From contig BDDD01005249.1 of NCBI GenBank assembly GCA_001972305.1, forward strand, positions 1 through 64,000: 64,000 bases of DNA, in the 5' to 3' direction. The notes beneath the pieces were generated by a model. The model was not told where the DNA came from and ran no database searches. It saw only the letters and a list, made by a program, of their open reading frames with translations. This document shows, one piece after another, positions 1-59,100 of this stretch. Source of the stretch: Cephalotus follicularis (Eukaryota; Streptophyta; Magnoliopsida; Oxalidales; Cephalotaceae). Made by a program: the position numbers and the translations under genes. Position 1 is the stretch's first letter. Each line of letters starts with the position of its first letter.

Positions 1-1193
1 GATCAATTGGAATGATCTTTCTCTTTGTTTCCAAGCTCTTCAGCAAATAATTCTTTTAATTTCAGCAGGTTCAATCTATATCATGAAAGCATGTTGTTCA
101 GTCATTAACAAGTAGGTTGTCTAGATTATCCAGCTACAATAGCTGTCCTAACAGTGATTCAACAATAGTTCATTAAGCCATTTAACTATCCTTTTTCACT
201 TCCCTTTGAACTCTATGTCAATCATCATTCAATTTTGGGTTCCTTGATCTTAATGTGCTGACAGAAGGTATACATGTGCTTAGGGAAATCAGTAAGTTTA
301 TATCATTCTAACTAACAACAACAATAATCCAATCTAGAGGTTACCATATCCATTTATACTTGAACCATCATTACTTTCAATTTCTATTCTAGAAGATGTT
401 GATTCCTAACGAAGTTAACAGAAGACATTAACATTCTCCTAGTTATACTATCATCATTTTAACAGTGAGTTCGAATTTACAAACTTACCAAGAGTCCAAA
501 GCTTCCAAGTCTTTGAGTTCCACTCCAAATCCTCAATGCAAGCTCCAATAATCCCAGCAACTCTCCTCAATTTCCAGTGTTTCTAACACTCTCTCTCAGC
601 TCATGCACAGCTGATATAGGGCTCAGGGACCTTGAATTCTCCAGAGTTCTTTAACTTAGCTTCTCTCATTCCTCTCTCTCTCTCTCTCTCTCACATGCAC
701 CTCTTTCTCACCTTTCTCTCCTTTTCTTTTGCAGGTTACAGGTCTGCAACTTGCAGGTGGAATAGAGGGCATGCAAGCACTCTAATTTGCATGCTCTGGC
801 AGCTCCTGTCATGCATGACACCTGCCCACCATGCATTCCTTGTCGTTTCAGTCACACAGGCATGCAAAGACACCTGTTCTGTACTGATCCAGTCAACTGT
901 CTTCAACTGGCAGTTGACTGTCCACAAAACGCATCAGGCAGTCGACTGCTCCCCCTGTGACAGTCGGCTGTCCCTTCATAAACCAGGAAGTTGACTGCAC
1001 CCCTGTGGCAGTCGGTTGTAATTGGCTGTTTTAGGGGTCTTGAGTTTGATACTTCACCAAATGTTCATCCATTCATCCCAAGCAATTATCAATCATAAAA
1101 AAAAATTATTATAATTGGACATTAAATTCAAATGAGTGCACATTTTATTAATCATTATTACAATATACACGAATTGAATTTGCTGTCATTACA
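1..1193 (-). repeat. Element A LTR, left copy (cut by window edge)
   Basis: This stretch repeats at 5726-6932 and 8540-9741, which identifies it as part of an LTR. Read on the minus strand it begins TGTAATGACAGC at 1193, directly after a purine-rich tract at 1194-1210, as a 3' LTR should. The other end lies outside the window. It holds a CT microsatellite near 672-691, several CATGC motifs between 694 and 870, and a TCGAC-type array at 891-1018. No coding content. Confidence 0.85.
891..1018. repeat. TCGAC-core motif array (element A LTR)
   Basis: Six copies of a nonamer related to AGTCGACTG start at 891, 912, 940, 962, 989 and 1010. Steps are 21, 28, 22, 27 and 21 bp. Variants are AGTCAACTG, AGTTGACTG, AGTCGGCTG and AGTCGGTTG. 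Function is not known; a protein-binding array in the LTR control region is an inference. Confidence 0.8.
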
Positions 1194-1239
1194 TTCCCAT
1201 CTCCTTAAAGAACATTCGTCCTCGAATTTAGTCCTTACA

Positions 1240-1644
1240 TTAAATTCCAAACAAGTGGGGAAATGTCTCCCCCATTTCATCCTCATGTTCCCACGTAGCT
1301 TCCTCCGCTCCGTGAAAATGCCACAGCACTCTGACCATAGGGATGGTCTTCTTCCTTAGAACCTTTTCCATTCTACCCACAATCCTCGTCGGCCTTTCCT
1401 CATATGTCAATCTCGGGCTAATGAACCCCGGGGCGTAGCTCAGAATGTGAGATGGGTCAGGTACGTACTTCCGTAGCATTAAAACATGAAATACGTTATG
1501 CACATCCGATAAACTAGGCGGTAGTGCAACCTGGTATGCTACCTCCCCCACTCTCTCCAGTATCTCGTAAGGTCCAATATACCTTGGAGCCAACATCCCT
1601 TTGAGGCCAAAATGGTGTATCCCTTTCGAAGGCGAGATCTTCAA
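1240..1644 (-). pseudogene. Element A integrase C-terminus and chromodomain-like tail
   Basis: A 134-residue open stretch. Its first half carries the GPYEILERVGEVAYQ and HNVFHV motifs found at the end of plant gypsy integrases. The last 45 residues (KTIPMVRVLW to TWEHEDEM) match the degenerate chromodomain of Tekay-type elements, thought to guide integration to chromatin. It lies next to the LTR, as expected for the 3' end of pol. A near copy is at 6979-7383. Confidence 0.85.
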
Positions 1645-1809
1645 GAAAACATGATCTCCCTTCTCGAATTCCAGCTTTCTTCTCTTGCTATCGGTGTAAC
1701 TCTTCTACCAACTTTGTGTAGCTAGCAGTCTCTTCTTGATCATCTCCACTTTATCAGTGGCCGCTCGTACCAAGTCCGGTCCAAGCACTTGTCTCTCACC
1801 TACCTCGTC

Positions 1810-2391
1810 CTAGCAAATAGGTGATCTGCATTTTCTCTCGTACAAAGCTTCATAGGGAGCCATTCCAATGCTGGTGTGGAGACTGTTATTGTAGGAGAAC
1901 TCAATCAATGCCAAATGATCCTCCCAACTCCCAGCAAAATCAATCATGCAAGCCCGAAACATATTCTCCAGAGTCTGGATAGTACGCTCAGACTGTCCGT
2001 CAGTCTGTGGGTGAAATGCAGTGCTAAAGCTTAAGGTCGTTCCCATTGCTGATTGGAACTTCTTCCAGTACCTTGAGGTAAATCTAGCATCTCGGTCGCA
2101 GACAATACTGACCAGCACCCCATGCAATCTCAGTATCTCCCGGATATACAATCGAGCAAGCTTCTCGATAGAATATGTCATGTTCATCGGAAGAAAGTGA
2201 GCAGACTTGGTGAGTCTGTCCACTACTACCCACACTGCCTCATGCTGATTCCGTGACCTCGGCAATCCTGACACAAAGTCCATGGTCACATGATCCCATT
2301 TCCATTCAACCATGGGTAGTGATTGTAGCAGTCCCGCAGGTTTCTGATGTTCAGCCTTCACTCTCTGTCCAGGTACTCGCGAATACTCCAC
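1810..2391 (-). pseudogene. Element A integrase core
   Basis: A 193-residue stretch with the integrase core words WDHVTMDFVSGLP, VDRLTKSAHF, CDRDARF and [13 protein letters not shown], which hold the acidic catalytic positions of the DDE family. The enzyme joins element DNA to the host chromosome. A longer copy of the same region is at 7444-8187. Part of a fossil pol region. Confidence 0.88.
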
Positions 2392-4236: not shown

Positions 4237-5462
4237 CTTCCAAAACTCTGTTGGCTGCTTCGATTAGGAGTTCGGGAACGAGAAAGGATTCGCAGTATTA
4301 CATTGTCACACCCCGTATTTCCATACTTTTACGTTAAGACAAGCATAATAATATTCCAGCATTCCATTCAATAATTCATAAATAAATTTACGAAAGCATT
4401 CGATAAGCCAAAATATAAATACAATTCATCCGCACGCATCCCATACTACGTGCAGGTACAATCCAACAATATCCTTAACAGAAGGAAATACAAAACAAAC
4501 ACGGGATGTGATCCGTTCGATACAAAACAAATTACAGTACATCATAACAAAATAACAACCTTAAATCGAAAGTAGAAGCTCTCCAAGCTTCAGCAGTAAC
4601 TCCGATCTCTTCGCTTAATCTGAAATTGTAGGGGGTTAGCCGTTGTCCTCACTTGGCTAAGTAGGAAGATAATGCATGCTAAGGAATATATGAATGCAAC
4701 ATGTATGATAGTTTATATTTAAAATAATATTTCAGTGTGCCAATATAAAAGCAAACATGCCAAGTGGCCATACACAATCCATATGCAAGAATACCGCACA
4801 AGGGTACAATCAATCAGTCCAGTAGTTTGTCCGAAGACCAGTATTGGGCTCAAGACGTCGCTAACCCCTAGCCTACGTCGAGCCACCTAGCTATCACCCC
4901 AATTCCGCTGATGATAGGAGGTAAACAGTACTACCGGCATTTAGTGGGCAGATAACAGTACACGGTCTACGATGCAGATCAGTATGGTGAATAAGCACTA
5001 GCCAACTCCTGGCACATAGGCTCACCGTCGTAATCAGTGATATCTTCCCATCACTCGACCACAGTATGCATAGACAGTCTATCAATCAATTGAGTCCAAT
5101 AATATTACATATATATATGATATGCAATATAAAAATGTTTTCTTTAGAAACATATAACATTTCAGTGATCGTACATCTCATATGAGGAAACGATATCAGT
5201 ACAGTATTGGTTTCCAATTCGGAAACAAAACAGTAGGTGATAAAACAGTAGGTGCTTGTAAACAATAGTTTTCATTTTGAGAATGATAGTTAAACCATGA
5301 ATTGTGCATATAGCACATAGTTCGTTCGATCGTTGAAATATAAGTAATAGCGATGTTGAATAACATCAAAACAGTATATACTATATAATGGTGGCATATA
5401 AAATTCAATAACAGTACAAGACAGTAGCAATTCAATCAATATTATGCAATTTTACCCAGGAC

Positions 5463-5575
5463 AGTCGACTGCTCTCAAGAAAAGTCGGCTGCTTTGGTTG
5501 AGTAGTCGACTGCTTTGCCTTAGCAGTCAACTGGATAGGGTTGAGTAGTCGACTGCCATGAAGAACAGTCGACTG
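5463..5575. repeat. TCGAC-core motif array (element A LTR, inner cluster)
   Basis: Six nonamers start at 5463, 5483, 5504, 5525, 5547 and 5567, so steps are 20, 21, 21, 22 and 20 bp. Four are AGTCGACTG; one is AGTCGGCTG and one AGTCAACTG. The spacer sequences differ, so only the motif and its period are kept. Confidence 0.85.
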
Positions 5576-6628: not shown

Positions 6629-6756
6629 AGTCAACTGTCTTCAACTGGCAGTTGACTGTCCAGAAAACGCATCAGGCAGTCGACTGCTCCCCCTGTGACA
6701 GTCGGCTGTCCCTTCATAAACCAGGAAGTTGACTGCCCCCCTGTGGCAGTCGGCTG
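6629..6756. repeat. TCGAC-core motif array (element A LTR, outer cluster)
   Basis: Six motifs start at 6629, 6650, 6678, 6700, 6727 and 6748, matching the array at 891-1018 in order and spacing. Forms include AGTCAACTG, AGTTGACTG, AGTCGACTG and AGTCGGCTG. Confidence 0.8.
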
Positions 6757-6978
6757 TAATTGGCTGTTTTAGGGGTCTTGAGTTTGATACTTCACCAAAT
6801 GTTCATCCATTCATCTCAAGCAATTATCAATCATAAAAAAAAAATTATTATAATTGGACATTAAATTCAAATGAGTGCACATTTTATTAATCATTATTAC
6901 AATATACACGAATTGAATTTGCTGTCATTTCATTCCCATCTCCTTAAAGAACATTCGTCCTCGAATTTAGTCCTTACA

Positions 6979-8187: not shown

Positions 8188-8480
8188 ATCTTGGAACTTC
8201 TTGGGTGAACACTATACTTCGATTTGTGAGCTTGTTGCAGTAGCTCATTCTTGATGCTCTCGTCACTCGGAACACATATGCTCCCTCGGAACCTCAATAT
8301 GTCATCAGTATGAATGGAGAACTCAGAATCAGCGTCTAGGTTCTCGCGAATACTCCACAATCCAGAATCACTATACTGAGCAGTCAGAATACGTTCCAGA
8401 AGTTCCGGTTGTGCTCTCATACTTGCCACAATAACTCCTCGGGAAACCATGAACGGATTCCATCTCTGAAATTCCTCCAA
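8148..8480 (-). pseudogene. Element A integrase N-terminal region, right unit
   Basis: The stretch contains [37 protein letters not shown] and SKMWHDLKG, the typical lead-in to the gypsy integrase zinc-binding domain. It overlaps the integrase core stretch in another frame and ends at the boundary with LTR sequence. Confidence 0.75.
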
Positions 8481-9208
8481 TATGCATAAAATATCTTCCA
8501 TAACATATCACTACCCCTACCTCAATAGCTTATCCCAAGATCAATTGGAATGATCTTTGTCTTTGTGTTTCCAAGCTCTTCACCAAATAATCCTTTTAAT
8601 TTCAGCAGGTTCAATCTATATCATGCAAGCATGTTGTTCAGTCATTAACCAGTAGGTTGTCTAGATTATCCAGCTACAATAGCTGTCCTAACAGTGATTC
8701 AACAATAGTTCATTAAGCCATTTAACTATCCTTTTTCACTTCCCTTTGAACTCTAAGTTAATCATCATTCAATTTCGGATTCCTTGATCTTAAAGTGTTG
8801 ACAGAAGGTATACATGTGCTTAGGGAAATCAGTAAGTTTATATCATTCTAATTAACAACAACAATAATCCAATCTAGAGGTTACCATATCCATTTATACT
8901 TGAACCATCATTACTTTCAATTTCTATTCTAGAAGCTGTTGATTCCTAACGAAGTTAACAGAAGACATTAACATTCTCCTAGTTATACTATCATCATTTT
9001 AATAGTGAGTTCGAATTTACAAACTTACCAAGAGTCCAAAGCTTCCAAGTCTTTGAGTTCCACTCCAAATCCTCAATGCAAGCTCCAATAATCCCAGCAA
9101 CTCTCCTCAATTTCCAGTGTTTCTAACACTCTCTCTCAGCTCATGCACAGCTGATATAGGGCTCAGGGACCTTGAATTCTCCAGAGTTCTTTAACTTAGC
9201 TTCTCTCA

Positions 9209-9245
<37 letters not shown>

Positions 9246-9741
9246 TGCACCTCTTTCTCACCTTTCTATCCTTTGCTTTTGCAGGTTATAGGTCTGCAAC
9301 TTGCAGGTGGAATAGAGGGCATGCAAGCACTCTAATTTGCATGCTCTAGCAGCTCCTGCCATGCATGACACCTGCCCACCATGCATTCCTTGTCGTTTCA
9401 GTCACACAGGCATGCAAAGACACCTGTTCTATACCGATCCAGTTGACTGTCTTCAACTGGCAGTCGACTGTCCACAACACGCATCAGGCAGTCGACTGCT
9501 CCCCCCGTGAAAGTCGGCTATCCCTTCATAAACCAGGAAGTCGATGCCCCTCTGTGGCAGTCGGCTGTAATTGCCTGTTTTAGGGTTCTTGAGTTTGATA
9601 CTTCACCAAATGTTCATCCATTCATCCCAAGCAATTATCAATCATAAAAAAAATTATTATAATTGGACATTAAATTCAAATGAGTGCACAATTTATTAAT
9701 CATTATTACAATGTACACGAATTGAATTTACGGTCATTACA
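8481..9741 (-). repeat. Element A LTR, right copy (partial)
   Basis: Matches 5667-6932 of the central LTR over about 1.26 kb with few differences. It ends at the same LTR terminus (GTCATTACA on the plus strand) and then meets plus-strand element F. It carries the CT microsatellite and the outer motif array (9441-9567). Confidence 0.85.
9441..9567. repeat. TCGAC-core motif array (right element A LTR)
   Basis: Six motif positions at 9441, 9462, 9490, 9512, 9539 and 9559, repeating the 21, 28, 22, 27, 20 spacing of the other two LTRs. Some copies differ in sequence from the matching copies there. Confidence 0.75.
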
Positions 9742-11446: not shown

Positions 11447-14202
11447 TGTAATACCCTACTTGCCTGTACGTATTTTTCTTACGGGTTTTATCTGTTCCGT
11501 TTAAGTATTTGTATGTTTTACGTTGGGTTTATGTTTTTGGGCTGACTGATACTAGCCTTAGTTTTGGGCATGTTAGTATGGACATTTTGTTGGGTAAATT
11601 TAGTCACATTATTATTACTATAAACCAATTTATAAATACATAATTATCATCTTATATTTACAAATTGATTTTATTAAATTGTGTTTTCAAATTTTGTTTT
11701 TAAAACAAATCTTTTATCTTAATTACTTTCCTTCTCCCTCTCAAACTCTCTCTCACCCGTATCCCTCTCTCTCCAATCTCCCTCTCCTGCACAACTCTAT
11801 CTCTTTCCTTTCTTTCTCCCAAAAAATCTTCACCCCTTCCATATCTGAATAGATTTTGTTTCCTAAATCCTTATCCTACCCGATTGATCCCCTAAATTGC
11901 TATTTAAGTATGCCAACGCCATTGTGTCAGCCATTCCTTCACCTCTTGTGTTGCTGACGAACCTGTCATTGTGAGTGTGCTACCTTTTCTGTGTCTCTGG
12001 CTTCAACAATAAGGTTTGTCTCTCCATGGATTAATTGTAGGAATCATGTTTACATTGTCTTGTATAGTGGGCAGGCTTTGAGTTCATTATTTTCTTCCTT
12101 TCATTTCATTTTGAGCAGCTACTGTGACTTCTGAATTGGTGTTTCTCCAACTGGTTTTGCCATAATCAGGTTGGTTTCCTTACGTTGTTATGTCATGGTG
12201 ATTGGCTATATGTTACTGTCTATCGAATTCTTATGTTATAGGCTGCTAGATTTTCTTTAATTCAGTTTTGGTTCCTGCCTTCCATATTCTGTCAATCACT
12301 TTCTGAGTTGGTTAGAAAGCCTATTGTCATCTCATATGTGTTATGTAATCTGGTTTTATAATTTGAATATGGCAATTATGCAGAAAAATGATTAGGAAGA
12401 GATATGCATGGTATAAATTTTCTGTCACTCTTAAATAAATTGCTCTCAATAGGTCTCTGTCGAATTCAGTGTTATAACATGGTTTTACATGCCATGCAAG
12501 GTTGTTTTTAATATTGGTAATCTTCTGGGGTTGAAAAATCTAAGTTTTGGCAACTAAATTGCACAAAACTGCACAAAACTGCTGTTCTGTCACCTAGAAC
12601 AGTCGACTGCCCATATGAACAGTCGACTGTTTAGTTTGAGTAGTCGGCTGTCTTGTGCAAATAGTCGATTGTTGTGTGTTGAGTAGTCGGCTGGACCCCT
12701 GATTCAGTCGACTGCCTCTAGTCCAGATTATGTAGTCGACTGGCCCTGTTGTGTAGTCGACTTCCACCCCTTTGAACAGTCGACTGGATTCCTGAAACAG
12801 TCGGCTGGTTTGTCCTGTAACTTTCTGTTTTCATCCATTTGTTCTTCCGATGATCCGGGTCTATTTTTAACATCATTATGATTCTGTTTTATGCCTAAAA
12901 TGAATTTTAGACCCTTATTTGAATATTGTTATGTTGAATAGATTATTGTGCTACGTGAAGCAAATTAAGTTTACCGGATATTCGTAAGTTAGTCTGTGAT
13001 CGCATAAGGTGCGGATATTCTACTCTTTGCTATTCTCTTCGATTTTAGCGAAATAAAATCAGTCTTGGACATCTGAATTATTTGAAATAAAGTCAGTTTT
13101 ATGAACGTGTTAAAGTATGTTTTTCGTATGCTTCGAAATAAAGTCAGTTGATATTTAATTGAAATGGATATTTTATGGCTTAATGAATTCAGTTGTGTTA
13201 TGTTTACGAAATGCTATGCACATGTCTCTTTATTGTGAAAATAAAAGAGTTGCATTTTCATTATGAAAGTATACGTGAAACTATATCGTTTGAGAACGAT
13301 TTATGATTATGTTTTGGGGAAACCTTTCTATGAATTTTAAGTTGATTTGATGAAATCAAAGTTTTTGAAATGGTGAAATACTGAGCTTTTATAACCACAT
13401 ATGGGGGTACCATAGGCATGCTGTGGGACTGGCACGGGGACATGACACTTTCCGTAACAGTGTGATTAGTTTACGGCGTCTCTCTGGGATATCCTTGGAT
13501 AGGATTTGTGATAGAGGTGTATGGATCGATCCTAGTTATATGTTTTGGGATATGTTATGTTATGGGAATTGTATGTGTAGTGCCGTATACTGCAATTCTT
13601 TTGGCAATGTGGATGTCGCGAATCCCTTGCTATTATGTGATTCTAATATGTTATGGGTTTTGGTGCTCAGTTGTGGAACCTATGTTTTGGAAAGGTATGC
13701 TTTATGGTTTCAAGTTATGAACTTGGTTTATATGTTTTGCCGTGGGATTTATAAAGTATGTTTAAACTATTTTATTGCTTAAGATTTCTGCTTTAAGGTA
13801 CTTTTGAAATCTTCTTGCTTTAAAATATCGTTTACTGTTTTACATTCTATATTCGTACTAAGGTTTGCTCAGCCGCGTTTTTGTTTCCATGTGGCAGGTT
13901 ATCAGGAGCGACGGGGCCATGTGTGATGAGAGTGACTCCCATATGTCTGAGGATCATCTAGGAGCTGATCCCTTTTGTGTTTATGTGGTCATAGTGGGAC
14001 CCGTTTAATGAACAACATGTTAATTTTATTTTATGACTTTTGGATTATGAATAAGCTTTAGTTTATGATCAGTTTCAGTATGTTTTGGATTTGCTTTAAA
14101 CCATCACGTTTTTAATAATGATGAACATTTCTAGTAAGATATGCTATGTTAAGTTTATGTTATATGCACCTGTGGCGACTCCCAAAGATAGGGGGTGTTA
14201 CA
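11447..14202 (+). repeat. Element F 3' LTR
   Basis: An LTR of about 2.76 kb, from TGTAATACCC to GGGGTGTTACA, with matching inverted ends. A TATA-like TATAAATACA lies at 11631-11640 and a CT-rich leader follows (about 11730-11820). Blocks at 13400-13560 and 13858-13960 recur in solo LTR L1 (36350-36540, 36898-36990), and the first also in element G (59635-59760), so the three LTRs are related. Confidence 0.85.
12601..12807. repeat. TCGAC-core motif array (element F LTR), ten copies
   Basis: Motifs start at 12601, 12621, 12642, 12663, 12685, 12706, 12734, 12755, 12778 and 12799. Eight of nine steps are 20-23 bp and the other is 28. Forms are AGTCGACTG, AGTCGGCTG and AGTCGATTG. This is the clearest two-helical-turn series in the window. 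Confidence 0.88.
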
Positions 14203-25517: not shown

Positions 25518-25530
25518 CCTAAACTCTAGA

Positions 25531-40723: not shown

Positions 40724-40899
40724 TGTAACGCCCGGTATTTTCATAATTGTAATATTTCGATTTAAGATGAAATCTTAAAATTGAAATAATGAAAATGTTT
40801 GAGATTTCAACCCCAAAGATGCTTATAAACCCTAAATATTGTTTGGGAAAAGAATTGTGTGAGTTAAACTTGAAAACGGCACAGTTATGGAAGAAACGA

Positions 40900-41045
40900 G
40901 TCGACAACTTTGGAAAGACGTCAACGCATAAGGGAACAAAGGTGCACGTGAATGCATGGGCATGCACGTCGATATGGAGAGAAGGCATCGACACCTTCTG
41001 GTGAAAGAGGGAAAGACATCGACGTCTAAGGAAAGACGTCGACGC
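40900..41045. repeat. TCGAC-type motif array (element C 5' LTR)
   Basis: Core starts at 40900, 40920, 40968, 40987, 41018 and 41038 (steps 20, 48, 19, 31, 20). Forms are GTCGACA, GTCAACG, GTCGATA, ATCGACA, ATCGACG and GTCGACG. Equivalent array in the 3' LTR at about 47620-47770. Confidence 0.75.
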
Positions 41046-41781: not shown

Positions 41782-42201
41782 GTCGTCGTCTACCAGAAGA
41801 CGTCGATGTCTTCGTGTACGTATGAAAAGGACATCGATGTTTGAGTGAAAGCATTGACGCCTTTTCTGGGAAATCGTAGAACTGTAATGTTCATTTCAGA
41901 TGGTCATTTAGCCACTTGGGATTTCCTGTTTGATTACGAATGGTCATTCTGGTTACATACTATGATAACCAGTATCTTTGCTTACGCCTTAAGAGGTTAA
42001 GCTTCGATTATATGAGGATTTAGGGCCTGGATTCTACCCTCTAGAATCCAGACTCGCGCACTAATACTTCCTGGTATCATAAAGACATCGATGTCTTTGT
42101 AAAGACATCGACGTCTTTGATCCAAATACGCCTGGAATAACTGTACAAAGGATCGACGCATTAGGGTAAAGACGTCAACGCCTTAGGGATAGACATCCAC
42201 G
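41782..42201. repeat. TCGAC-type motif arrays (element C 5' LTR, distal)
   Basis: Pairs spaced about 20 bp: 41782/41802, 41833/41853, 42087/42107 and 42152/42174/42195. The usual form is (G/A)TCGA(C/T)G(T/C)CTTT. Matching pairs occur in the 3' LTR between 47930 and 48360. Confidence 0.72.
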
Positions 42202-42511
42202 CCTATCTCCTGTTCAATGGAATTTCACCCGAATGCGACCCGCTAGACTCGAAACGACTCTAGAAACGATCTTAGATGCATTCTGAGCATATGTTTGCAT
42301 TGTTACTGTGATTTGCATTATGGTTGCTTTCAAAAAAGTGTTAACCATTATGAAAAGCTTGCATGATTATTATAATCATTTTTGTACGAAAATGTATATT
42401 TATCAACATATGATTTTATATATTTTCGAACTGACTGGGGAAAGTATTTTCCAATGACTGAGAAATGTTTTAAAGGATTGATTATGCAATCAAATGTATT
42501 ATGCGAAAATA

Positions 42512-43045
42512 AGAATCCACCCAGCTTCCGGGGTGAACTTGATGCTACGATTGCTGAAAGATGGCTTCAAGACTTGGAGAAGATTTTTGAAGTAATGGAC
42601 TGTACCGACACTCAGAAGCTGAAGTTTGCTGTGTACCGACTATGGGGAGAGGCCACTCACTGGTAGGAGATGGTCAGAGCGAAGTGGGAGTCAGTTGGAC
42701 TCAATGCTACATGGGAGAGGTTCCAGACAGAGTGCCTCGACTCCTATGTACCCCGTATTGATCAAGAACGGAGGGAGACAGAGCTTCTCGAGTTACGTCA
42801 AGGGGAGATGACTGTGGCCGAGTACCAGGCCAGGTTTATGGAGCTCGCCAGACATTCACCTTATCTGGTAGCTGATGATATGAAAAAGATACGGAGATTC
42901 CTGAAGGGTCTGCGACCAGACCTTCGGTCAAGGATTAGGGCTATGGAGCTGGGTACTTTTTCGGAGGTCGCTCAAAAAGCGAGGCTGCTGGAAAGCATAT
43001 CCAGTGAGGACCGAGTAGAGAGGGCCCGGGCACAACAAAATAAAT
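42512..43045 (+). pseudogene. Element C Gag
   Basis: Readable words are FRGELDATIAERWLQDLEKIF, KLKFAVYRLWGEATHW and then, in 42670-43047, ECLDSYVPRIDQERRETE, EMTVAEYQARFMEL and FLKGLRPDLRSRI, the retrotransposon Gag domain of plant gypsy elements. The N-terminus is absent. Confidence 0.82.
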
Positions 43046-43170
43046 AGAGCCCACCAAGACCAGCTTCTTCAAAATGGCAAAGCGGTGGTTCTCCGACTAA
43101 ATCATCAAAGATCAGATCTGAGCAGACTGCCACACAAGATACTCCTAGCCAAGGGAGTGATGCCAGAAAT

Positions 43171-43280
43171 GGAGCTTGCTATCACTGTGGTCGTAAAGGC
43201 CACTTACAGAAGGACTGCTGGAAGATGAACGGACTATGTTTGAGGTGTGGGGCATCTGGCCATTCCGTGAGAGATTGCCC
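43171..43280 (+). pseudogene. Element C Gag zinc knuckles
   Basis: Two CCHC knuckles in tandem, CYHCGRKGHLQKDC and CLRCGASGHSVRDC, as in element A. This is the nucleocapsid part of Gag. Confidence 0.82.
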
Positions 43281-43639
43281 GAAGAGTCAGGCTACGGCAC
43301 CTACTGGACCAGCGGGGCCGCAGCGGGACCTTCGCAGCAGGGAGACAAGGGCACGGGCATCATGAGAGGTAAGATTTTTGCTCTTACTTGCATCATCCTT
43401 GATCATAATGCCTTTAATTGGTTGACTATGTGGTAGCCATAGTTAAGTGAATGTTAAGTTGGACGTTTGTGGCCAACTAATGAGTAAGGGAATGATGATT
43501 CTCAGTACCATGTTAATGGATGGTTATACATATGCGTAGGCTAGTGTGGACCACATGCATGCTTAGTAAACTTCTAGAACCCAGATAACATAACCAAAGA
43601 ATATGAATTGTATCGCTTGGATAGTGATTCACGGTATTG

Positions 43640-44080
43640 ACTCAAGGGTGTTTTCAAAGCTAGATTTGAAATCGGCTATCACCAGTTGAGGGTGAGGGAA
43701 GGAGATATTGAGAAGACTGCTTTCCGGACAAGATACGGGCACTATGAGTTCCTTGTGATGCTTTTGGTATTTCCAATGCACCGGCTACGTTCATGTCATT
43801 GATGAACGATGTGTTTCGACCGTACCTGGACCAGTTTGTCGTTGTGTTTATTGACGACGTACTAGTAGGCTCGACGAGTGAGGAAGAGCATACTTACCAC
43901 CTGAGGTTGGCTCTGCAGATTCTCCGAGAGCACCAACTGTATGCCAAATTCAGTAAGTGTGAATTTTGGCTTGACCGTGTGATCTTTCTTGGTCACATTG
44001 TATCCGGAGAAGGTTTGGCGGTGGATCCGTCGAAGACAGAGGCGGTACAAGATTGGCCACAGCAGAATGATCAAGACTAA
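43640..44080 (+). pseudogene. Element C reverse transcriptase
   Basis: The open stretch 43793-44080 holds [21 protein letters not shown] (catalytic aspartate pair) and [21 protein letters not shown]. Upstream, worn RT words can be seen. Much shorter than a full RT; fossil. Confidence 0.8.
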
Positions 44081-44141
44081 AGGATGAGTTACTCCGCGGG
44101 GCTCATAAATCCCTGTACAGTATTCATCCTTGTAGTACCAA

Positions 44142-44540
44142 ATGTACCAAGATTCTGCGAGCAATGTGGCTCGATTATATGTGAAGGAGATTGCGAGGCA
44201 GCACGGTGTCCCGGTGAGCATCGTTTGCGATAGGGATTCGATCTTTACTTCCAAATTCTGGAAGAGATTCCAGACAGCCTTCGGAACAAGATTGAATCTC
44301 AGTACTACTTTCCACCCTCAGACAGAAGGACAGTCAGAGCGTACCATACAAACCTTAGAGGATATACTTCGGGCTTGTGTGATCAGTTTTGGTGGAACCT
44401 GGGAAGACCATATTCCTCAGATAGAATTTTCTTATAACAACAACTATCACTCGAGTATTGGTATGGCTCCATACGAGGCACTGTATGGGAGAAAGTGTAG
44501 GTCGCCCGTCTGTTGGGACGAGGTTGGTGAACGACCATAG
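44142..44540 (+). pseudogene. Element C integrase core
   Basis: 132 residues with [32 protein letters not shown] (catalytic glutamate region) and [16 protein letters not shown]. Corresponds to element A integrase (1810-2391, 7444-8187). Confidence 0.87.
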
Positions 44541-44597
44541 CTTGGGTCGGATTTGGTGGAGGAAACTTCGTAGAAAGTCAAGTTCATCAGAGAAAAG

Positions 44598-45116
44598 TTG
44601 CTTACAGCGATGAGTCGGCAGAAGAGCTATGCCGACAGTGTGAAGAGAAGGCCTTTAACCTTCAATGTTGGAGATTATGTGTTTTTGAGGGTATCTCCAT
44701 GGAAAGGGGTACAAAGATTCGGGAAGAAGGGCAAGTTAGCGCTACGCTACATTGGTCCTTTTGAGATTCTGGAAAGGGTTGGGGAGGTAGCTTACCGGAT
44801 AGCCTTGCCTCTTGCATTGTCAAGTGTACATGATATCTTTCATGTATCAATGCTACGAGGTTATATCCGAGATCCATCACATGTCCTGGATTATGACTCG
44901 GTTACGGTAAGGGATGATATTTCTTGCGAGGAGTCACCCATGAGAATCTTGGATTGGAAGATGCAAGTATTGAGGAACAGAACCATTCCGATGGTAAAGG
45001 TTGAGTGGCAATTTCATAGGCCGGATAAAGTGACTTGGGAAAGTGAGGGTGACATCCGAGAACATTACCCGCATTGTTTTAAGTATTGTGTTAATTTCGA
45101 GGACGAAATTTCTTGA
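44598..45116 (+). pseudogene. Element C integrase tail and chromodomain
   Basis: 172 residues: [44 protein letters not shown] and HDIFHVSMLRGY, then the chromodomain-like RTIPMVKVEWQFHRPDKVTWE. Best-preserved part of element C. A purine tract (GAAAGAGGGGTGGA, 45115-45128) follows. Confidence 0.87.
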
Positions 45117-45231
45117 AAGAGGGGTGGATGTAACGCCCGGTATTTTCATGATTGTAATATTTCGATTTAAGATGAAATCTTAAAATTTAAATAATGAAAA
45201 TGTTTGAGATTTCAACCCCAAAGATGCTTAT

Positions 45232-46256
45232 TGAAATGTTCTATATGGCAACTTTTAATTAACAAAAATGTTTGCGGAATTAACAAATTAAATTATGAAT
45301 ATAAACAACCACACAAAAAACAATCAAACAATAACAAGTAAATAGATAAGGGATAGAGAGTATGCAAACGATTTATAGTGGTTCGGCAAATCCGTGCCTA
45401 CGTCCACTTTCTAAAGAACCCCTTGAGTTTCCACTAGAATCCCCTAGCAACCTTTGATTTCGGCTTGCGGGTGAAAATCAAAGCAAACCACCTTACACTT
45501 GATTTTGGGTTCCGGGTGCAAATCAATTAAACACCTTACAAGGGTTCACTCCCCTCTTTTACAATTGAAGATAAAAAGATTGGTTTATGTTTACAAAGAC
45601 CTCTTAAAGGTTGGATATGAAAGTGATAGCTAGTTGCAAGCTTTGGGCATGAAAGTGTTAACAAAAGCTTGAAGTTCTTCTCTTTGTAGATGTGCAAGTT
45701 TAGTTTCTTGAGTGTAGATGATCAAAGTCTTTTCCCTTAGTCTCTTAAATATTGTTTCTTGACCTTTATATATAGCTTCATTTAGATTCTAGCCGTTGGT
45801 GAAGAAATATAGCCGTTGGAGAAGTCTTGAAAGTTGTTGCATAAAAAATGGCTCTTTAAAACGAGTTCTGATATTGTTGCAGCCGTCCAAAGCGTCGACG
45901 GTGTTGCCTAAAGCATCGGCTCTTAGGTTACCGTTATGAGTTAAATTTGAATTTTCTCGCTCTGTCTGCCGGCGCTTTAATCTGGGAGTCGATTCTTTGG
46001 AATAAAGCGCTGACGCTTTACTTATAAGCGTCGACGCTTTGAGCTCTTCAACTGATTTTGCACTTCACTGGTTTTCACCGCAGATATACGCTTCTCAGGC
46101 GTCAACTTTTTAGCATAAAGCACTGACGCTTTGATTGTAACCGTCGGCGCTTTGTCCTGTTTCTGCACTTCTTTATTTTGTTTATTTCTTTTCTTGCACA
46201 GAAAGTAACAAAGTCAAATGCAAATTTGTAATCATTAAAACTTAGGATTGGGTTTA
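45232..46256 (-). repeat. Element M 3' LTR
   Basis: Matches 46509 to about 47530. Its array has cores at 45894, 45915, 45968, 45988, 46009 and 46030 (steps 21, 53, 20, 21, 21), forms GTCGACG and GCTGACGCTTT. A TATA-like stretch lies near 45767-45776 (minus strand TATATATAAAG). Confidence 0.82.
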
Positions 46257-46453
46257 GGAGAGACTACTCCTTCTATAGTTCTTGTGGGCATTCTAGGACC
46301 ATTTACAATAATATGCCATAATTGATAATCTAGGGATTGTAGAAAAATGGTCATTCTAGTCTTCCAAAAACTATAGTTATTTCCGTCAAAGAACGGAGGT
46401 CTAGTAACGGAGGAACCTTCTAATCCTATGTTTAGATTCAATTGGTTTGCCAT
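46235..46453 (-). pseudogene. Element M Gag start
   Basis: 72 residues beginning MANQLNLNIGLEGSS, with RPPFFDGNNYSFWKTRMTIFL, the N-terminal signature of SIRE-type Gag (DUF4219/UBN2 type). The ATG lies 42 bp from the primer site, so it is the natural start. Only this N-terminus is present, and its end runs into the 3' LTR. Confidence 0.82.
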
Positions 46454-46494
46454 GGATCTTTATATCTCTAACAATTAAGAATTATGAGATAACC

Positions 46495-46506
46495 GCTCTG
46501 ATACCA
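46495..46506 (-). other. Element M primer-binding site (tRNA-iMet)
   Basis: Minus strand TGGTATCAGAGC, 2 bp from the end of the 5' LTR; identical to the site in element B. Confidence 0.9.
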
Positions 46507-46508
46507 AT

Positions 46509-47543
46509 TGAAATGTTCTATATGGCAACTTTTAATTAACAAAAATGTTTGCGGAATTAACAAATTAAATTATGAATACAAACAACCACACAAAAAACAA
46601 TCAAAAAATAACAAGTAAAGAGATAAGGGATAGAGAGTGTGCAAACGATTTATAGTGGTTCGGCAAATCCGTGCCTACGTCCACTTTCTCAAGAACCCCT
46701 TGAGTTTCCACTAGAATCCACTAGCAACCTTTGATTTCGGCTTGCGGGTGCAAATCAAAGCAAACCACCTTACACTTGATTTTGGGTTTCGGGTGCAAAT
46801 CAATTAAACACCTTACAAGGGTTCACTCCCCTCTTTTACAATTGAAGATAAAAAGATTGGTTTGTGTTTACAAAGACCTCTTAAAGGTTGGATATGAAAG
46901 TGATAGCCAGTCGCAAGCTTTGGGTATGAAAGTGTTAACAAAAGCTTGATGTTCTTCTCTTTATAGATGTGCAAGTTTATCTTCTTGAGTGTAGATGATC
47001 AAAGTCTTTTCCCTTAGTCTCTTAAATCTTGTTTCTTGACCTTTATATATAGCTTCATTTAGATTCTAGCCGTTGGTGAAGAAATATAGCCGTTGGAGAA
47101 GTCTTGAAAGTTGTTGCATAAAAAACGGCTCTTTAAAACGAGTTCTGATATTGTTGCAGCCGTCCAAAGCGTCGACAGTGTTGCCTAAAGCGTCGGCGCT
47201 TAGGTTACCGTTATGAGTTAAATTTGAATTTTCTCGGTCTGTCTGCCGGTGCTTTAATCTGGGAGTCGATTCTTTGGCATAAAGCGCTGACGCTTTACTT
47301 ATAAGCGTCGACGCTTTGAGCTCTTCAACTGATTTTGCACTTCACTGGTTTTAACCGCAGATATACGCTTCTCAGGCGTCGACTTTTAAGCATAAAGCGC
47401 TGACGCTTTGCTTGTAACCATCGGCGCTTTGTCCTGTTTCTACACTTCTTTATGTTGTTTATTTCTTTTCTTGCACAGAAAGTAACAAAGTCAAATGCAA
47501 ATTTGTAATCATTAAAACAAAGGATTGAGACTAAAAGTCAACA
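46509..47543 (-). repeat. Element M 5' LTR
   Basis: 1,035 bp; on the minus strand TGTTGACTTTTAG to AGAACATTTCA. Cores at 47171, 47192, 47245, 47265, 47286 and 47307 (steps 21, 53, 20, 21, 21). In transcription order the array precedes a TATA box (minus strand TATATATAAAG at about 47043-47053), as in the LTR of S. Confidence 0.87.
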
Positions 47544-49676
47544 CTTATAAACCCTAAATATTGTTTGGGAAAAGAATTGTGTGAGTTAAACTTGAAAACG
47601 GCGCAGTTTTGGAAGAAACGCGTCGACGTCTTTGGAAAGACGTCGACGCCTATGGGAACCAAGGTGCACGTGAATGCATGGGCATGCACGTCGATATAGA
47701 GAGAAGGCATCGACACCTTCTGGTGAATGAGGGAAAGACATCGACGTCTAAGGAAAGACGTCAACGCCTTTGTAAAGAACATCTGTCACGATTAACACTA
47801 ACAGAATGGCATGCAATGGGAAATTTTGAGGCTTTATCCAGACGCCTTGACATGCACAATGGGACATGTTGATCATGCTGGGGTGTTTCCAGGCATGCTT
47901 CAAAACGTGTCCTTGACATGGTTGGGTTGGATAAACGTCGACGTTTACCAGAAGACGTCGATGTCTTCGTGTACGTATGAAAAGGACATCGATGTTTGAG
48001 TGAAAGCATCAACGCCTTTTCTGGAAAATCGTAGAACTATAATTTTCATTTCATATGGTCATTTAGCCACTTGGGATTTCCTGTTTGATTACGAATGGAT
48101 GTTCTGGTTACATACTATGATAACCAGTAGCTTTGCTTACACCTTAAGAGGTTAAGCTTCGATTATATGAGGATTTAGGGCCTGGATTCTTCCCTCCAGA
48201 ATCCAGACTCGCGCACTGATACTTCCTGGTATCATAAAGACATCGATGTCTTTGTAAAGATATCGACGTCTTTGATCCAAATACGCCTGGGAATAACTGT
48301 ACAAAGGATCGATGTATTAGGGTAAAGACATCGACGCCTTAGGGATAGACATCGACGCCTATCTCCCTGTTGAATGGAATTTCACCTGAATGGGACCCGC
48401 TAGACTCGAAACGACTCTAGAAACGATCTTAGATGCATTCTGAGCATATGTTTGCATTGTTACCGTGATTTCCATTATGGTTGCTTTCAAAAAAGTGTTA
48501 ACCATTTTGAAAAGTTTGCATGATTATTATAATCATTTTTGTACGAAAATGTATATTTATCAACATATGATTTTATATATTTTCGAACTGACTGGGGAAA
48601 GTATTTTCCAATGACTGAGAAATGTTTTAAAGTATTGATTATGCAATCAAATGTATTATGCGAAAATATATATTTGTCAACATACGATTTTATATATTTT
48701 AAAAATGAGTAGGGAAGTATTCCCAAAGACGGAGAAATGTTTTAAAGGATTGGTTACCCAATCAAATGTATTGTTTTAAGTTTTATAACTTATCACAACT
48801 TGTGAACGGATTAATATATTTTAAACAAATATATTTGATCAAGTAATTATATTTTATTGCTTGACTTGTACTGTGAAATGCTTGTGCCTGTTGGCTGCTC
48901 AGCCGCTGTGCTGAGTAACTGCTGTTGGTTTAGCCGCCGTGCTAAGCAACTTACGGAGGACTTGCTCCAAAACTGTTCGCAAACGGGGATGGGGTAAGAG
49001 TGCTTGAAGTTGGGGCCAGGAGGTGGCGACGATCAGGACGACTGGACTGTCTGGTTCCTTTTGGAACATATTTACTGCTTGTGTTGAGATAACATATAAG
49101 TTTTACATGTGCTGTGAGCATGCATATAATTTTTCTATATGTATATAAGGAGATATATTTCTGTGAAAACTACATGTCATGTTGCATCATAATGCATTCA
49201 TTCATGATACTCATTATCATCTGACTCGAAATGTGTTTATAAGTTTATTCACTTAGCCGAGTGATGACAAAGGCTAACCCCCTACTGTAACAGATTGATG
49301 GAGTGGTTTGTGAGATGGAGCCTGCTTGGAGACTTAAAGATAAGACTGTGTAGTTTCTCTTATTTTATGTACTGGATTATGGAACAATGATTATGTAATT
49401 TGGATTCTTGTAACAAAGGATATTTTGTTATCTCGTACTGTTTTATCACGCTCCGTTTATGGGCGATCGACAATGATGTTGGGTTATTTATTTAAAACTT
49501 GTTGGGCATCACGTAGTATGGGATGCGTGATGCGTGTTTAAATTCGGCTCATTTACGTTATTGCTTCCGCTACTGAAGGTTTTTATTTATTGGTAAATTT
49601 GCATGAGCTGGATTATTTCATGTTGATTGCCTTACCACTTTACATGTTGTCTTAAGTTGGAAATCGAGGTGTGACA

Positions 49677-50202: not shown

Positions 50203-50323
50203 AGCCGACTGTTATGGAAAAAGTCGACTGGGTGGCTGTAAGTAAACAGACGACTGTTTGCGGAAACAGTCGACCAGACGACCTTAAGTAGGCAGCCGAC
50301 TGTTGGATAAGAACAGTCGAATG
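50203..50323. repeat. TCGAC-core motif array (L2, first cluster)
   Basis: Motifs start at 50203, 50222, 50248, 50268, 50294 and 50315 (steps 19, 26, 20, 26, 21). Forms are AGCCGACTG, AGTCGACTG, AGACGACTG and AGTCGAATG. Confidence 0.78.
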
Positions 50324-51171: not shown

Positions 51172-51385
51172 ACCGACTGTTCAGCGTATACAGCCGACTG
51201 TTAATGGACACCAGTCGGCTGTGCATGTATTATTCTACCCAGGAAATAGCGGGAATGCGATGTTGGATGGTTTAGGGTATTGTTCGCAAGAAACAGTCGA
51301 CTGTTGAAGGAAAACAGTCGACTACGCATGTACTACTCGCCCAGAACAGCCGACTGGTTTGAGAGACAACCGACTGTCACAGTGA
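51172..51385. repeat. TCGAC-core motif array (L2, second cluster)
   Basis: About seven AGTCGACTG, AGCCGACTG, AACCGACTG or AGTCGGCTG words in two groups (51172-51222 and 51295-51385), with steps of about 20-22 bp inside groups. Confidence 0.72.
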
Positions 51386-55464: not shown

Positions 55465-57941
55465 CCCTCAACAACAAAGGCTAACGCTAAGGCCAGGGCA
55501 GGCGTTAAAAACGCGCTGCCGAGGAGAGCCGCGCTCCCCAGGCCAAACGCACCCAAGGCATTAAACAAGAAATGCCCGAGCAGGGAGGAGGAAAGAAGGA
55601 AGGGTAAAACAGTAAAAGAACCCTTACTTAAACTATTCCTCAAAACTCACCGTTTAACTAAAAGAAATGAGCACAACACCCACTCAGCAAACGCACCGTT
55701 TAACTAAAGGGAAAGCGCACCAGACCCACTGCCTAAACGCACCGTTCCACTAAAGGGAACATGCCAGGGAAGGGAGACAGGTCAGAGAACGCAATCCCTA
55801 CGTCTTGCCTGGGGTCCCGGGCAGGGATACCAACACAACATAACGTAATGCAAGCCAAGCCTGCACCCCGTCCTAAGACATGTCTTCCTAGGACAAACTA
55901 TGCTCGGGCATCTCCTCATTGGACGACATCACTTAACAAAAGGCTAAGCCTGGGATCAACACAAGGGCCCGGGGAAAAACGCTAAACATATGGGATAACT
56001 ACCCGATGTCCCACAAACGCTCAAACTACACTAAGGAGATAGAATCTCACATCGGCCAGGTACCCAGGGGATCCACCAGGGCTCACCGACGAAAACATCT
56101 CCAGCGACCGAGCTGGTCCGAGGTCGGGAGGTCGGGCAAAACAAAAGAAAACTACTTACCTCTACATAACGCCTACGGCATGCCCGGGAACAACACCCGG
56201 GGACTCCACCAAACCCTAGCTTAGGGTCAACCAACCCGAGCTGCAAGTCAACCTAAAGGTTTGACCAACCACGATCAAGCCACCCCTTTCCCCTGGCATC
56301 TCAGCAGAGGTGCCACGCACGAAAGGCCCGAGGAGAAACACTGCAGTTTAACCAAGGCCAAGGCTGGGAAGACATGCTACCCTGCCCAAGGTCAAACAAC
56401 CCCCGAACACATACGTCGTCCCTGCACAACAAAACACTAAGCAAAACAGCGCTAGGACTGGGAAAACAGCATAAACAACAAGTATATAAAACAAAAGAAT
56501 GAATTATATACACGGTCCCGGGCAAACTGCCAAGGACGCCCAACATCCAAGAGTTTTACAAGAGTTTACAAGAAAAAGGTTTACAAGGCATAGATATAAA
56601 CAAAATCTATACAAACCCACATGAATGTCCCCAAATACATGAAGGCGTCCGAGGCCTAGGAGCCATCCTAAGGTACCACATCCGGCGTCTACCTGTCTCT
56701 ACAAGCTATCCTTAGTGGATCTCAAGAACACAGCTGCCCCGCTCCCTCTGCACACAAAACTGAGAGGGGATTAGTCCAACTGACTAGTGAGTAAGATCAA
56801 AGAGTATCCTGGGCGACCCACTTCCACCAGGGTGCCAAGAGTCAAGGCGAACGTACCCTGCCCCAACTGGGTCGGGGATAACCCATCTCCCCTGCTCAAC
56901 AAAACAAGACAGAGGTGAAAGTATACAAGGATATTGATAACAAAGAAAAGTCTGAAGAGACGTCAGAGCTACCAACTCAATGACTGACCTCAAGGAAAGA
57001 AGATAAACAATAGTTTATATATATCAGAACATGCCAAGGATCCAAGGATAAAAAACAGATCAACTCTAAGGATCAACGATTCTCAAGAGGACTACTGGTA
57101 CTGTATCAATCACAAGCACATTCCACACACACACATGCACAATCGACTCACACATTTCCATAACCGGAACCACCTCAGCAGCATAGATAAAAAACTTCGT
57201 TGACGTTCTATCAACGCGGTCATAGGCTATAGGATTGAACACATCCCTCATATACTCAATATAGATACCCACTTCCAGAGCATCGCATGAACATCGGTAG
57301 AAGGGCAACGCAAGCACTCCTCACCTGGCAAATCATACATTGGCGCACCTCACTACATGAACCTCGAACGAGGGGCTACGCAAGCCCTCCCCCGTCGGCA
57401 ATCACGAGCTCAGCATTACACTAGGTGAACCTCGATCGAGAAGCTACCTCATCGGCAATCACATAACATTAGTATCATTCAAGGGGCTCGCGAATCACCG
57501 CTCAGCTCCACCCTTGACGAAAAAGACAGAGGAGAACCTCGGCTCAGAGGTAAGTGTATCACCACTTAGACCATCTCGTGCAGGCAATCTCATACATAGC
57601 CAAGTAACCAGCACCCAATAACCAGTATCCAAGGACAACAACACATGATATCAAATAAAGCATGAATACTAAACACGAAAGGGGAAACAACAAGTTCAAC
57701 CCAGGCAAAGCAGTATTCACATGCAGTATCAACAAGATGACAGGAGAAGAAATCCTAGTCAAAGGTAATATAACGAAAAGACATATAAACAACAACTCTC
57801 AGTTATCAATTGATAGAAAGAAGAACATCCCACTCACTACTATCAACAGCTTTCTCAGCTAGCTCCCTTGTTCTGCGGACTCTGTGCCTAGATCTTCCTC
57901 TTCAAGACCAACACACAACAACTCTTAGCTACCATGAACAA
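55465..57941 (-). repeat. LTR-type remnant E (GC-rich), no gene seen
   Basis: 2.5 kb without a credible open frame. It has a three-unit repeat of about 46 bp near 55650-55764 (CACCGTTTAACTAAA), a GGGGATTAGTCC-CTGACTAGTGAG block at 56764-56790 like that of B (18765), and two worn copies of the B-type CCTCGA-CGAGGGG repeat at 57360-57470. It therefore appears related to the element B LTR. Ends uncertain; it may continue LTR D or be a separate LTR. Confidence 0.5.
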
Positions 57942-58079
57942 TGTAATATACCGTTTCTATGTTGACATGTTTATATGTTTGTTGATGATATCATATCCTT
58001 TTTGATTTATGCCATGGTATGCGGATCTCCTTGGTTTTTGGTTTGAATTCCTTTTATTTTTGTTTTTTGGGCACAAAGT

Positions 58080-58206
58080 GCCGACGCTCTCTTTAGAACA
58101 GCCGACGCTTTGGCTGATGTGTGGCACGTCGATGCCTAAACGTGTGACTTCGACGCGTTTTGTATTTAAGTGCATAACCGTCGAAGCTTTAAGTAAACAA
58201 TCGACG
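58080..58206. repeat. TCGAC-type motif array (element G LTR, first cluster)
   Basis: Cores start at 58080, 58101, 58128, 58149, 58180 and 58200 (steps 21, 27, 21, 31, 20). Forms are GCCGACGCTTT, GTCGATGCCT, TTCGACGCGTTT and ATCGACGCTTT. Confidence 0.8.
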
Positions 58207-58969
58207 CTTTGTTCGACTTTCCATATCAGTTTGGACGGTGACAGTGTTTTTGGAATGTTGATTTCTTTCCTTTTTCTGGCTATCCGATTTCCTTAAGTGT
58301 GAGAAGCATTTTGATTAGTATAGTAAAGTTTTAAAATACTGATTTGTCAATTTAAAACATGGATTTTCGCATTAACCAGACAAAATCATTTTTAAAAGCA
58401 TAAACTCTTTTATGCACTTTTTACAAACAAACAGCAACCTTGCAAGTCATTTTCTGCATCGATTTCGACGTTTTCTAGAGGTAATTTCTAAACGAAAATT
58501 TTAACTAGTAATATGTAGTTTCTATAACATCTTTTAATTCGTGTTAAAACCAAATATAACATGATCTAGAGCATGATTTTGGAAGCATGTTGAAACTAAA
58601 TTTCTGCAGTGTTCATTCATGGGTTTTGTGCATAATTTGTAATACTGGTGATTAAAAACAAGAAATCATGTCATGGACGTATGTATGTATATATATATTA
58701 CTGTTTTTACAGATTATATACAAGAAAATCGGACTATAGTTCATGATTATGTAAACTATTTTTAAAACCATATTTTGACATGAACACTATGCTAAACTTG
58801 TTATTTTCATGATTTTGAGTTTGTAATCACTATACTGATAAATACAGACTCATATGACATGTTTTTAAGTTTGGTTGTTGCTACTATAGCTTCTGTATAT
58901 GAAAAATAAAAATTGTTCTTGAAATTGAAACTACTTTCTGCATTGATTATTCTGTGTCTAGCTCAAACC

Positions 58970-59100
58970 GTCGACGCTTTCGTTCTGAGCGTCACCGCTT
59001 TGTGTCTTTTTATGCCTTAGTCTGTCGACTCTTGGCTCGATGCTTTGTCCTTTTGTGCTATCAAACCGTCGATGCCTAGGAATAAACGGTAGATGCTTTA
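58970..59100. repeat. TCGAC-type motif array (element G LTR, second cluster)
   Basis: Contains GTCGACGCTTT, GTCACCGCTTT, GTCGACTCTT, GTCGATGCCT and GTAGATGCTTT words. The first two and the last two are 20-21 bp apart. Confidence 0.72.

Follow-up and report, generated by a model that had tools for sequence, protein, structure and literature searches.

We examined a 64,000-nucleotide stretch of the genome of the carnivorous plant Cephalotus follicularis (positions 1 to 64,000 of contig BDDD01005249.1, forward strand; hereafter the window), in which long terminal repeat (LTR) retrotransposons carry arrays of a short TCGAC-type motif that recurs about every 21 bp. Counting as an array at least three sites with gaps up to 60 bp and at least one step of 19–22 bp, we find 14 in the window, where a first-pass annotation of the same DNA had claimed more than fifteen. 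The arrays belong to a genome-wide pattern, and their spelling varies with the subfamily (alpha, beta, or gamma) of an accessory protein encoded by many of the elements, Transposase_32 (T32; PF20167), which is our candidate for the protein that binds them. The window contains the following features.

892–1015, minus strand: gamma-flavour array (sense spelling CAG[T/C]CGACTG) within a chromodomain gypsy copy, in its 3' internal non-coding DNA, which is homologous to the stretch of locus L010 between pol and 3' LTR.
5463–5575, minus strand: six-site array adjoining the start of a gypsy LTR (homologous LTR at ~4345–5435), steps 20, 21, 21, 22, and 20 bp.
6629–6760, minus strand: array in a second copy of the chromodomain-gypsy 3' internal region.
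9441–9570, minus strand: array in a third copy of that region.
12600–12808, minus strand (inferred from similarity to L010): ten-site array, steps 20, 21, 21, 22, 21, 28, 21, 23, and 21 bp.
25292–25560, plus strand: alpha-type sites, mostly GTCAAC, upstream of the T32 frame; outside the 14 arrays.
25823–26605, plus strand: T32 accessory frame of the alpha subfamily, an incomplete gene (80.1 bits; cut-off 45).
27528–27976, plus strand: alpha-flavour arrays downstream of the T32 frame; all 10 sites of 27500–28000 are GTCAAC.
33775–34344, plus strand: copia reverse transcriptase fragment (PF07727) that precedes the 35.5-kb array.
35496–35728, plus strand: nine-site array, mostly of GTCGACGC type, downstream of copia pol; a poor fit to all three T32 profiles.
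40777–42511, plus strand: first of two direct repeats, read as an LTR pair, around a gypsy element; arrays at 40900–41045 and 42107–42180.
45895–46036, plus strand: AAAGCGTCGACGCTTT-type sites in the first of two tandem copies, in non-coding sequence that separates pol from the second direct repeat; outside the 14 arrays.
47172–47385, plus strand: AAAGCGTCGACGCTTT-type sites, second tandem copy; outside the 14 arrays.
47499–48668, plus strand: second direct repeat of the gypsy element; array at 47622–47765, further sites at 48263–48357.
50204–50322, plus strand: gamma-flavour array.
51295–51355, plus strand: gamma-flavour array, steps 21 and 32 bp.
58080–58213, plus strand: GCCGAC/GTCGAT-type array, steps 21 and 27 bp, with more TCGAC words.
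58970–59073, plus strand: looser GTCGAC/GTCGAT sites; outside the 14 arrays.

A spacing peak near 21 bp, set beforehand as a test of the pattern, is present genome-wide and far exceeds what shuffled sequence yields. By scanning the 1.577-Gb assembly, we counted 174,792 GTCGAC pairs at distances of 19–22 bp against 1,783 for a backwards-read control, compared with 6,258 (control 1,191) at 6–18 bp and 3,117 (control 383) at 23–26 bp. Per distance, pairs at 19–22 bp are ~91 times as frequent as those at 6–18 bp and 56 times as frequent as those at 23–26 bp. Likewise, AGTCGACTG N12 AGTCGACTG occurs 44,196 times forward and the reversed pattern 147 times. With a site taken as GTCGAC or one of six variants, the window holds 45 pairs at 19–22 bp, whereas 100 dinucleotide shuffles averaged 0.21 and never exceeded 1; 20 random 10-kb loci hold 89, whereas 40 shuffles gave a mean of 0.68 and a maximum of 3. 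Arrays were found at 12 of these 20 loci. A motif-blind scan of the same loci (2,733 hexamers by 51 distance windows) returned pieces of this motif as its top 15 results, 14 of them at 20–22 bp and one at 19–21 bp, and CGTCGACG (93x) and AGTCGACT (23x) stood alongside simple repeats among the most over-represented 8-mers of the sample loci. In the window itself, the positions first reported were exact, with AGTCGACTG or a variant at 5463, 5483, 5504, 5525, 5547, and 5567, and again at 12601, 12621, 12642, 12663, 12685, and 12706. Three in-step gamma sites were absent from a scan of IMG/VR, a search that is uninformative on other plants. Titles and abstracts of the open-licence literature yielded no description of the motif or of such arrays in LTR retrotransposons, and CAGTCGACTG and “retrotransposon” co-occurred in no paper searched within that literature. 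Separately, ACCCTCGC/CCCTCGCC is also over-represented (11–14x) in the sample loci, with CCCTCG pairs at 39–41 bp, and is perhaps another element-specific word.

Arrays occur in gypsy and copia-type elements alike, as originally proposed, with the copia assignment made partly from sequence read by eye: at L018 a frame read by eye as copia RNase H lies upstream of the array, and L035 gave a weak match to copia reverse transcriptase (E 1.7e-6). Their placement “in LTRs” was only partly correct, as arrays also lie in internal non-coding DNA, as in chromodomain gypsy between pol and the 3' LTR. The gypsy element of L010, which we take to be Tekay-like from its chromodomain-type integrase, has both LTRs (95.8% over 1,305 bp), and its six-site array (8388–8496) ends at the 3' LTR and is the counterpart of the window array at 5463. 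The element C1 carries 11 sites in each LTR (709-bp repeats, 96.2%) plus an internal array ahead of the accessory gene, and the window gypsy (40777–48668) has arrays in both direct repeats. Separate arrays can share one spelling, as do the LTR and internal arrays of C1 and those upstream and downstream of T32 in L029 and L030.

The first arrays were dominated by two near-palindromic flavours, RRCAGTCGACTGYY and WARRCGTCGACGYYTW. Among 166 array sites, drawn from pairs that had to include one exact GTCGAC, 96 read GTCGAC and most others were transitions of it, GCCGAC/GTCGGC making up 15. Element families nevertheless differ in spelling while keeping the same step (CAGYCGACTG; GAC[A/G]TCGACGYC; RCGTCAACGC), and flank positions −2, −1, +6, and +7 are much more alike within than between arrays (z 13.6–18.6). 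A claim that the spacers are unrelated held for pooled spacers, which contain little information compared with the 8–10-bp site, but not within arrays, where the other positions out to ~10 bp from the core show a weaker likeness (z about 1–8). That likeness is what one would expect if slippage and gene conversion had spread functionless 21-bp units in the manner of a minisatellite, and L039 offers a second hint, since one of its array blocks is repeated perfectly in tandem over 747 bp. However, the whole unit, spacer included, is not repeated as it is in a tandem-repeat satellite; the information resides in the site, the same step occurs with three spellings, and diverged copies keep their sites longer than their spacers in four of seven comparisons (see below), making such expansion improbable. 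The L039 block (224–970 and 971–1717) is dense in CAGTCGGCTG sites, and either recent block duplication also enlarges arrays or the copy is an assembly artefact.

At the random loci, distances between sites are rare below 19 and at 23–27 bp and peak at 19–22, 28–29, 40–43, 49–52, and 61–65 bp; the larger gaps that had been reported were observed at 27–31, 40–43, and 48–52 bp. Pairs 25–130 bp apart, pooled over loci that include related copies and with the first peak left out, gave a best period of 10.5 bp (Rayleigh 53, against at most 17 for uniform distances). For pairs beyond the first peak at the 20 random loci, periods of 21.25 bp (18.2) and 10.75 bp (17.8) were about equally strong (null maximum 13.7), and consecutive gaps there gave 11.25 bp (9.8; null 95% 8.0, maximum 11.1). 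When one locus was left out at a time, the best period was 21.25–22.25 bp in 15 cases, 10.5–11.0 bp in four, and 7.0 bp in one. Half-decayed sites mid-way in the 40–43-bp gaps left a weak signal (22 gaps; mean best match 3.36 vs. 2.59–3.00 at four offsets). A reversed-hexamer control (17 pairs at 19–22 bp vs. 4 at 23–26 bp) was given no weight because it was contaminated, CAGCCG, CAGTTG, and CAACTG being pieces of the motif. Helical phasing of the arrays is supported, not proven.

The number 21 invites two other readings of the step. Phased 21-nt small RNAs, the second idea of the first-pass annotation, match its length, but steps of 19, 20, and 22 bp together (87) outnumber those of 21 bp (76), the 10.5–10.75-bp period beyond 25 bp is about as strong as 21 bp at random loci and stronger at pooled loci, and small RNAs give no reason for a site at every register. 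We consider it extremely unlikely that they set the step. Because 21 nt is also seven codons, the arrays could encode heptad repeats, and one of them (L010:8388–8496) is indeed open and reads as SRLL-like heptads. Yet 140 of 241 steps (12–33 and 40–43 bp) are not multiples of three, so the frame is not kept, and a coding origin is scarcely credible.

The sites also have a direction. Pairs of the C-variant CAGCCGACTG are head-to-tail in 32,561 cases and tail-to-tail in 375, these being the two classes counted. On the coding strand of 17 array regions, picked because that strand was known and including several that are copies of each other, GCCGAC outnumbers GTCGGC 33:1 and GTCAAC outnumbers GTTGAC 79:11. 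This count left out arrays of unassigned strand and three next to gypsy pol on the minus strand (two in L021 and the other in L027), each of which has one GCCGAC on the plus strand. ATCGAC and GTCGAT are not oriented alike across the first 44 arrays (18 same vs. 17 opposite pairs), and ATCGAC is mostly in sense in beta loci. The orientation counts weaken the idea of a purely symmetric-dimer site. The sense bias and the near-palindromic site might instead point to a role in genomic RNA, such as dimerisation, packaging, or recognition by an RNA-binding protein. However, self-pairing in sense would tolerate GTCGGC (G-U) and not GCCGAC (C-A), the reverse of what is observed (1 vs. 33), and a periodicity near 10.5 bp fits B-DNA; we judge an RNA-level function highly improbable. 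Satellite-like duplication, heptad coding, RNA self-pairing, and 21-nt small RNAs are each disfavoured by the data.

Sites tend to be conserved between diverged copies. Across 342 overlapping, and so not independent, alignments at 62–90% identity, GTCGAC was kept in 66 of 178 cases (0.37), compared with 0.06–0.31 for 14 other palindromes. The CpG within GTCGAC was kept in 111 of 174 cases, other CpG in 4,015 of 11,238, and other TCGA in 536 of 1,466. Identity of sites exceeded that of spacers between L029 and L030 3' (0.81 vs. 0.63; 13 of 2,000 shifts as extreme), L029 and L031 3' (0.81 vs. 0.64; 28), L029 and the window (0.84 vs. 0.59; 11), and window A and the 12.6-kb array (0.90 vs. 0.63; 24), and weakly between L010 and window A (0.92 vs. 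0.77; 148). Sites thus outlast spacers in four of the seven comparisons, and weakly in a fifth. By contrast, when the two LTRs of a single insertion are compared, it is the sites that differ more (site vs. spacer identity 0.85 vs. 0.93; 0.84 vs. 0.97). This pattern may reflect constraint during element replication followed by methyl-C decay, because a functional, methylated site would be expected to decay faster between the LTRs of one insertion. A host silencing module, in which a host repressor recognises the arrays and is aimed at retrotransposons, would suit a motif common to unrelated elements genome-wide. However, losing a silencer's target would benefit an element, and sites are kept between diverged copies, which makes this quite improbable.

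To relate the arrays to proteins, we turn to T32, for which the Pfam gathering cut-off is 45 bits. The window frame (80.1 bits) and the L018 protein (78 bits) exceed it, while two T32 pieces of C1, scored separately at 39.4 and 27.9, each fall below. A first look at the genome gave 13,073 candidates with the Pfam model, 15,271 with a beta protein, and 11,556 with a gamma protein, in overlapping sets, of which 150, 94, and 150, respectively, were scored. We examined 16 loci (4 alpha, 6 beta, and 6 gamma), with C1/L003 chosen via its arrays, L018 via the random sample, and 14 by protein match alone. All 16 have phased sites near T32, from 4 to 44 each, and in eight of them pairs at 19–22 bp number 16 (alpha), 43 (beta), and 40 (gamma), with none at 23–26 bp. 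Alpha sites read RCGTCAACGC (core GTCAAC in 39 of 54), beta sites GAC[A/G]TCGACGYC (ATCGAC or GTCGAC in 114 of 128), and gamma sites CAG[T/C]CGACTG (flank A..T in 103 of 109), and leave-one-out site profiles named the correct T32 subfamily for 16 of 16 loci. In longer alignments, the alpha and beta proteins are 36–42% identical, and gamma is 22–29% identical to either. DNA identity within subfamilies goes down to 71% (alpha) and 73% (beta), so the shared spelling is not just recent copying.

The profiles also reach elements that lack the protein. The gamma profile suits the two arrays of Tekay-like copies without T32 (−3.5 and −3.4 per site, against −12 or lower under the other profiles), the LTR arrays of the window gypsy fit alpha and beta about equally, and those of L019 are nearest alpha. 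Further flavours probably exist, because the L021 and window 35.5-kb arrays fit no profile well; the nine-site array at L021:2309–2485 (GCGTCGACAR) is possibly a fourth. Conversely, a T32 frame lies between LTR-like direct repeats in L033:13–4041 (98.6%), L034:1–4300 (97.9%), and L042:1–4300 (97.2%). With ten gag/pol query pieces, no match in L033 was stronger than E 0.19, and in L034 only T32 reached 1e-5; L033 and L034 are candidate non-autonomous elements with the accessory protein as their sole gene. As read by eye, T32 has a basic N-terminus and a probable C-terminal coiled coil. Compared with Pfam at E ≤10, four pieces of T32 matched, besides Transposase_32, only DUF755 and TelA, both far below cut-off, with the VANC profile not compared. 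A search with the L018 protein gave 348 matches, and all 120 listed were from Cephalotus, two of them matching L034 and L036 at 100% over 388/388 amino acids.

We tentatively favour the explanation that the arrays are directional, phased sites whose likely binder is the element-encoded T32, in a system resembling VANC (see below) that is also used by gypsy elements without T32. Each T32 subfamily would recognise its own spelling of a shared TCGAC-type site and cover rows of sites along a single face of the helix, the 21-bp step being two turns. Bound T32 would switch on or un-silence its element from arrays that could lie both in LTRs and upstream of the accessory gene, and T32-less elements with arrays (chromodomain gypsy and another window gypsy) would use the protein in trans. 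The original proposal of phased sites for one host DNA-binding protein survives in part: the sharp 21-bp step, the site conservation in four of seven comparisons, and some ~10.5-bp periodicity support phased protein sites, but a single host protein is disfavoured by spellings that differ among element families and follow the subfamily of an element-encoded protein at 16 of 16 loci.

Several observations count against this explanation. Only one of the 12 array-bearing random loci (L018) has T32, and the 10 kb of L026 hold a 39-residue T32 fragment but no array. No more than three subfamilies count as independent, and each family inherits both T32 and arrays, so the match between spelling and subfamily might have arisen by common descent, with no interaction between protein and site. 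Nor do all elements keep to one spelling: arrays in beta LTRs (GACATCGACGCC) and those upstream of the beta gene (RCGTCGACTCC) have different flanks and cores, and the sites that precede the second repeat of the window gypsy are spelled differently from those in its LTRs. L039 holds 26 GTCGGC sites in opposite orientation. A secondary step of 27–29 bp, seen in several arrays, is off helical phase and unexplained. Two comparisons showed no excess of site identity (window 6.6 kb and L010, 0.81 vs. 0.73, 470 of 2,000 shifts; L029 and L030 5', 0.67 vs. 0.65, 803), and the four clear ones include a non-independent pair, as L030 and L031 are 89% identical. Finally, T32 has no relative in PDB by sequence (best E 0.12).

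The main rival is that the arrays are captured host enhancer sites, bound by one or a few host transcription factors, for example of the AP2/ERF DREB/CBF type, and repeatedly produced by selection for transcription. Repeated regulatory sites are familiar in plant LTR retrotransposons from the BII-box repeats of Tnt1 and the heat-shock elements of ONSEN, which are few in number, lie in the U3 of one family, and are bound by host factors. By contrast, Cephalotus has ~175,000 phased GTCGAC pairs in several families, also at internal positions, and the ONSEN-type heat-shock element, a repeat of nGAAnnTTCn, is not in the array consensus. DREB/CBF proteins recognise (G/A)CCGAC and TCGAC variants, with (G/A)(T/C)CGAC reported, and share the YCGAC core with our arrays; the common variants GTCGAC, GCCGAC, and ATCGAC all match. 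Capture of host sites would also account for arrays in elements without T32, for the lack of an adjoining T32 at most random-locus arrays, and for the retention of sites between diverged copies. However, the Cephalotus sites have extended near-palindromic flanks and a 21-bp step, the core (A/G)CCGAC is not general (GCCGAC is common only in gamma arrays), and spellings vary among families at core and flanks. The alpha core GTCAAC falls outside (G/A)(T/C)CGAC, so several factors with the same 21-bp geometry would be needed, and enhancer sites do not usually keep so strict a head-to-tail order as those of the C-variant. On balance, we regard capture of host sites as rather unlikely.

The closest known system to the T32 explanation is that of the VANDAL elements, Mutator-like transposons of Arabidopsis. 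According to passages of two papers, these elements encode an accessory protein, VANC, for anti-silencing, whose sites are short, dense, and in the same orientation in the element's non-coding DNA and differ among families, and an unrelated element, AT9TSD1, carries the VANC6 site (PMC5735166, PMC10398659). The likeness lies in an element-family accessory protein with phased sites nearby at 16 of 16 loci (the L026 fragment being the exception), in one-orientation arrays in non-coding DNA (except the L039 block), and in a site that varies with protein subfamily across three subfamilies. The differences are that ours are LTR retrotransposons with Transposase_32, a near-palindromic site, and a 21-bp step. 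By analogy, the Cephalotus arrays and T32 may work as a VANC-type system. T32 itself has been described as a 3' additional open reading frame (ORF) of sunflower Athila with predicted nuclear localisation, and the passages on that ORF mention no motif arrays (PMC11728184). As far as those passages describe it, Pfam family and 3' position are the same, whereas in Cephalotus T32 lies downstream of copia-like pol (L018 and L035, as read) or between LTR-like repeats (L033, L034, and L042).

Other repeats in the window stand apart from these arrays. At 19662–19901 and 21695–21934, 61-bp tandem repeats with ACCTCGACCGAGG and GACGTCGATATT, in two 2-kb direct repeats, contain a TCGAC word at a different period. 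A motif-unrelated 46-bp tandem repeat starting AAACGCACCGTTT (2.5 copies) lies at 55643–55759, and a 115-bp A+T-rich tandem duplication at 48544–48772 adjoins an LTR array. The best protein matches of the window reverse transcriptase were in the Asteraceae (Tanacetum 83%, Helianthus 80%, and Mikania 78%), which we read as gaps in the protein collection.

It is possible, though we hold this with less confidence than the T32 explanation itself, that T32 is an element-encoded, sequence-specific control common to plant LTR retrotransposons of both superfamilies, assembling head-to-tail along one helix face of 21-bp arrays with subfamily-specific site codes, un-silencing cognate elements in cis and in trans, and spread through the Cephalotus genome to include elements with apparently only protein and sites and gypsy elements with only sites. 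One genome here offers a named protein family, candidate target sites, and three natural specificity variants, so that recognition, co-divergence, and use in trans by other elements become directly testable. If true, selfish anti-silencing of the VANC kind would reach beyond Mutator-like DNA transposons and include LTR retrotransposons, and it might help explain how such elements filled the 1.6-Gb genome of a carnivorous plant.

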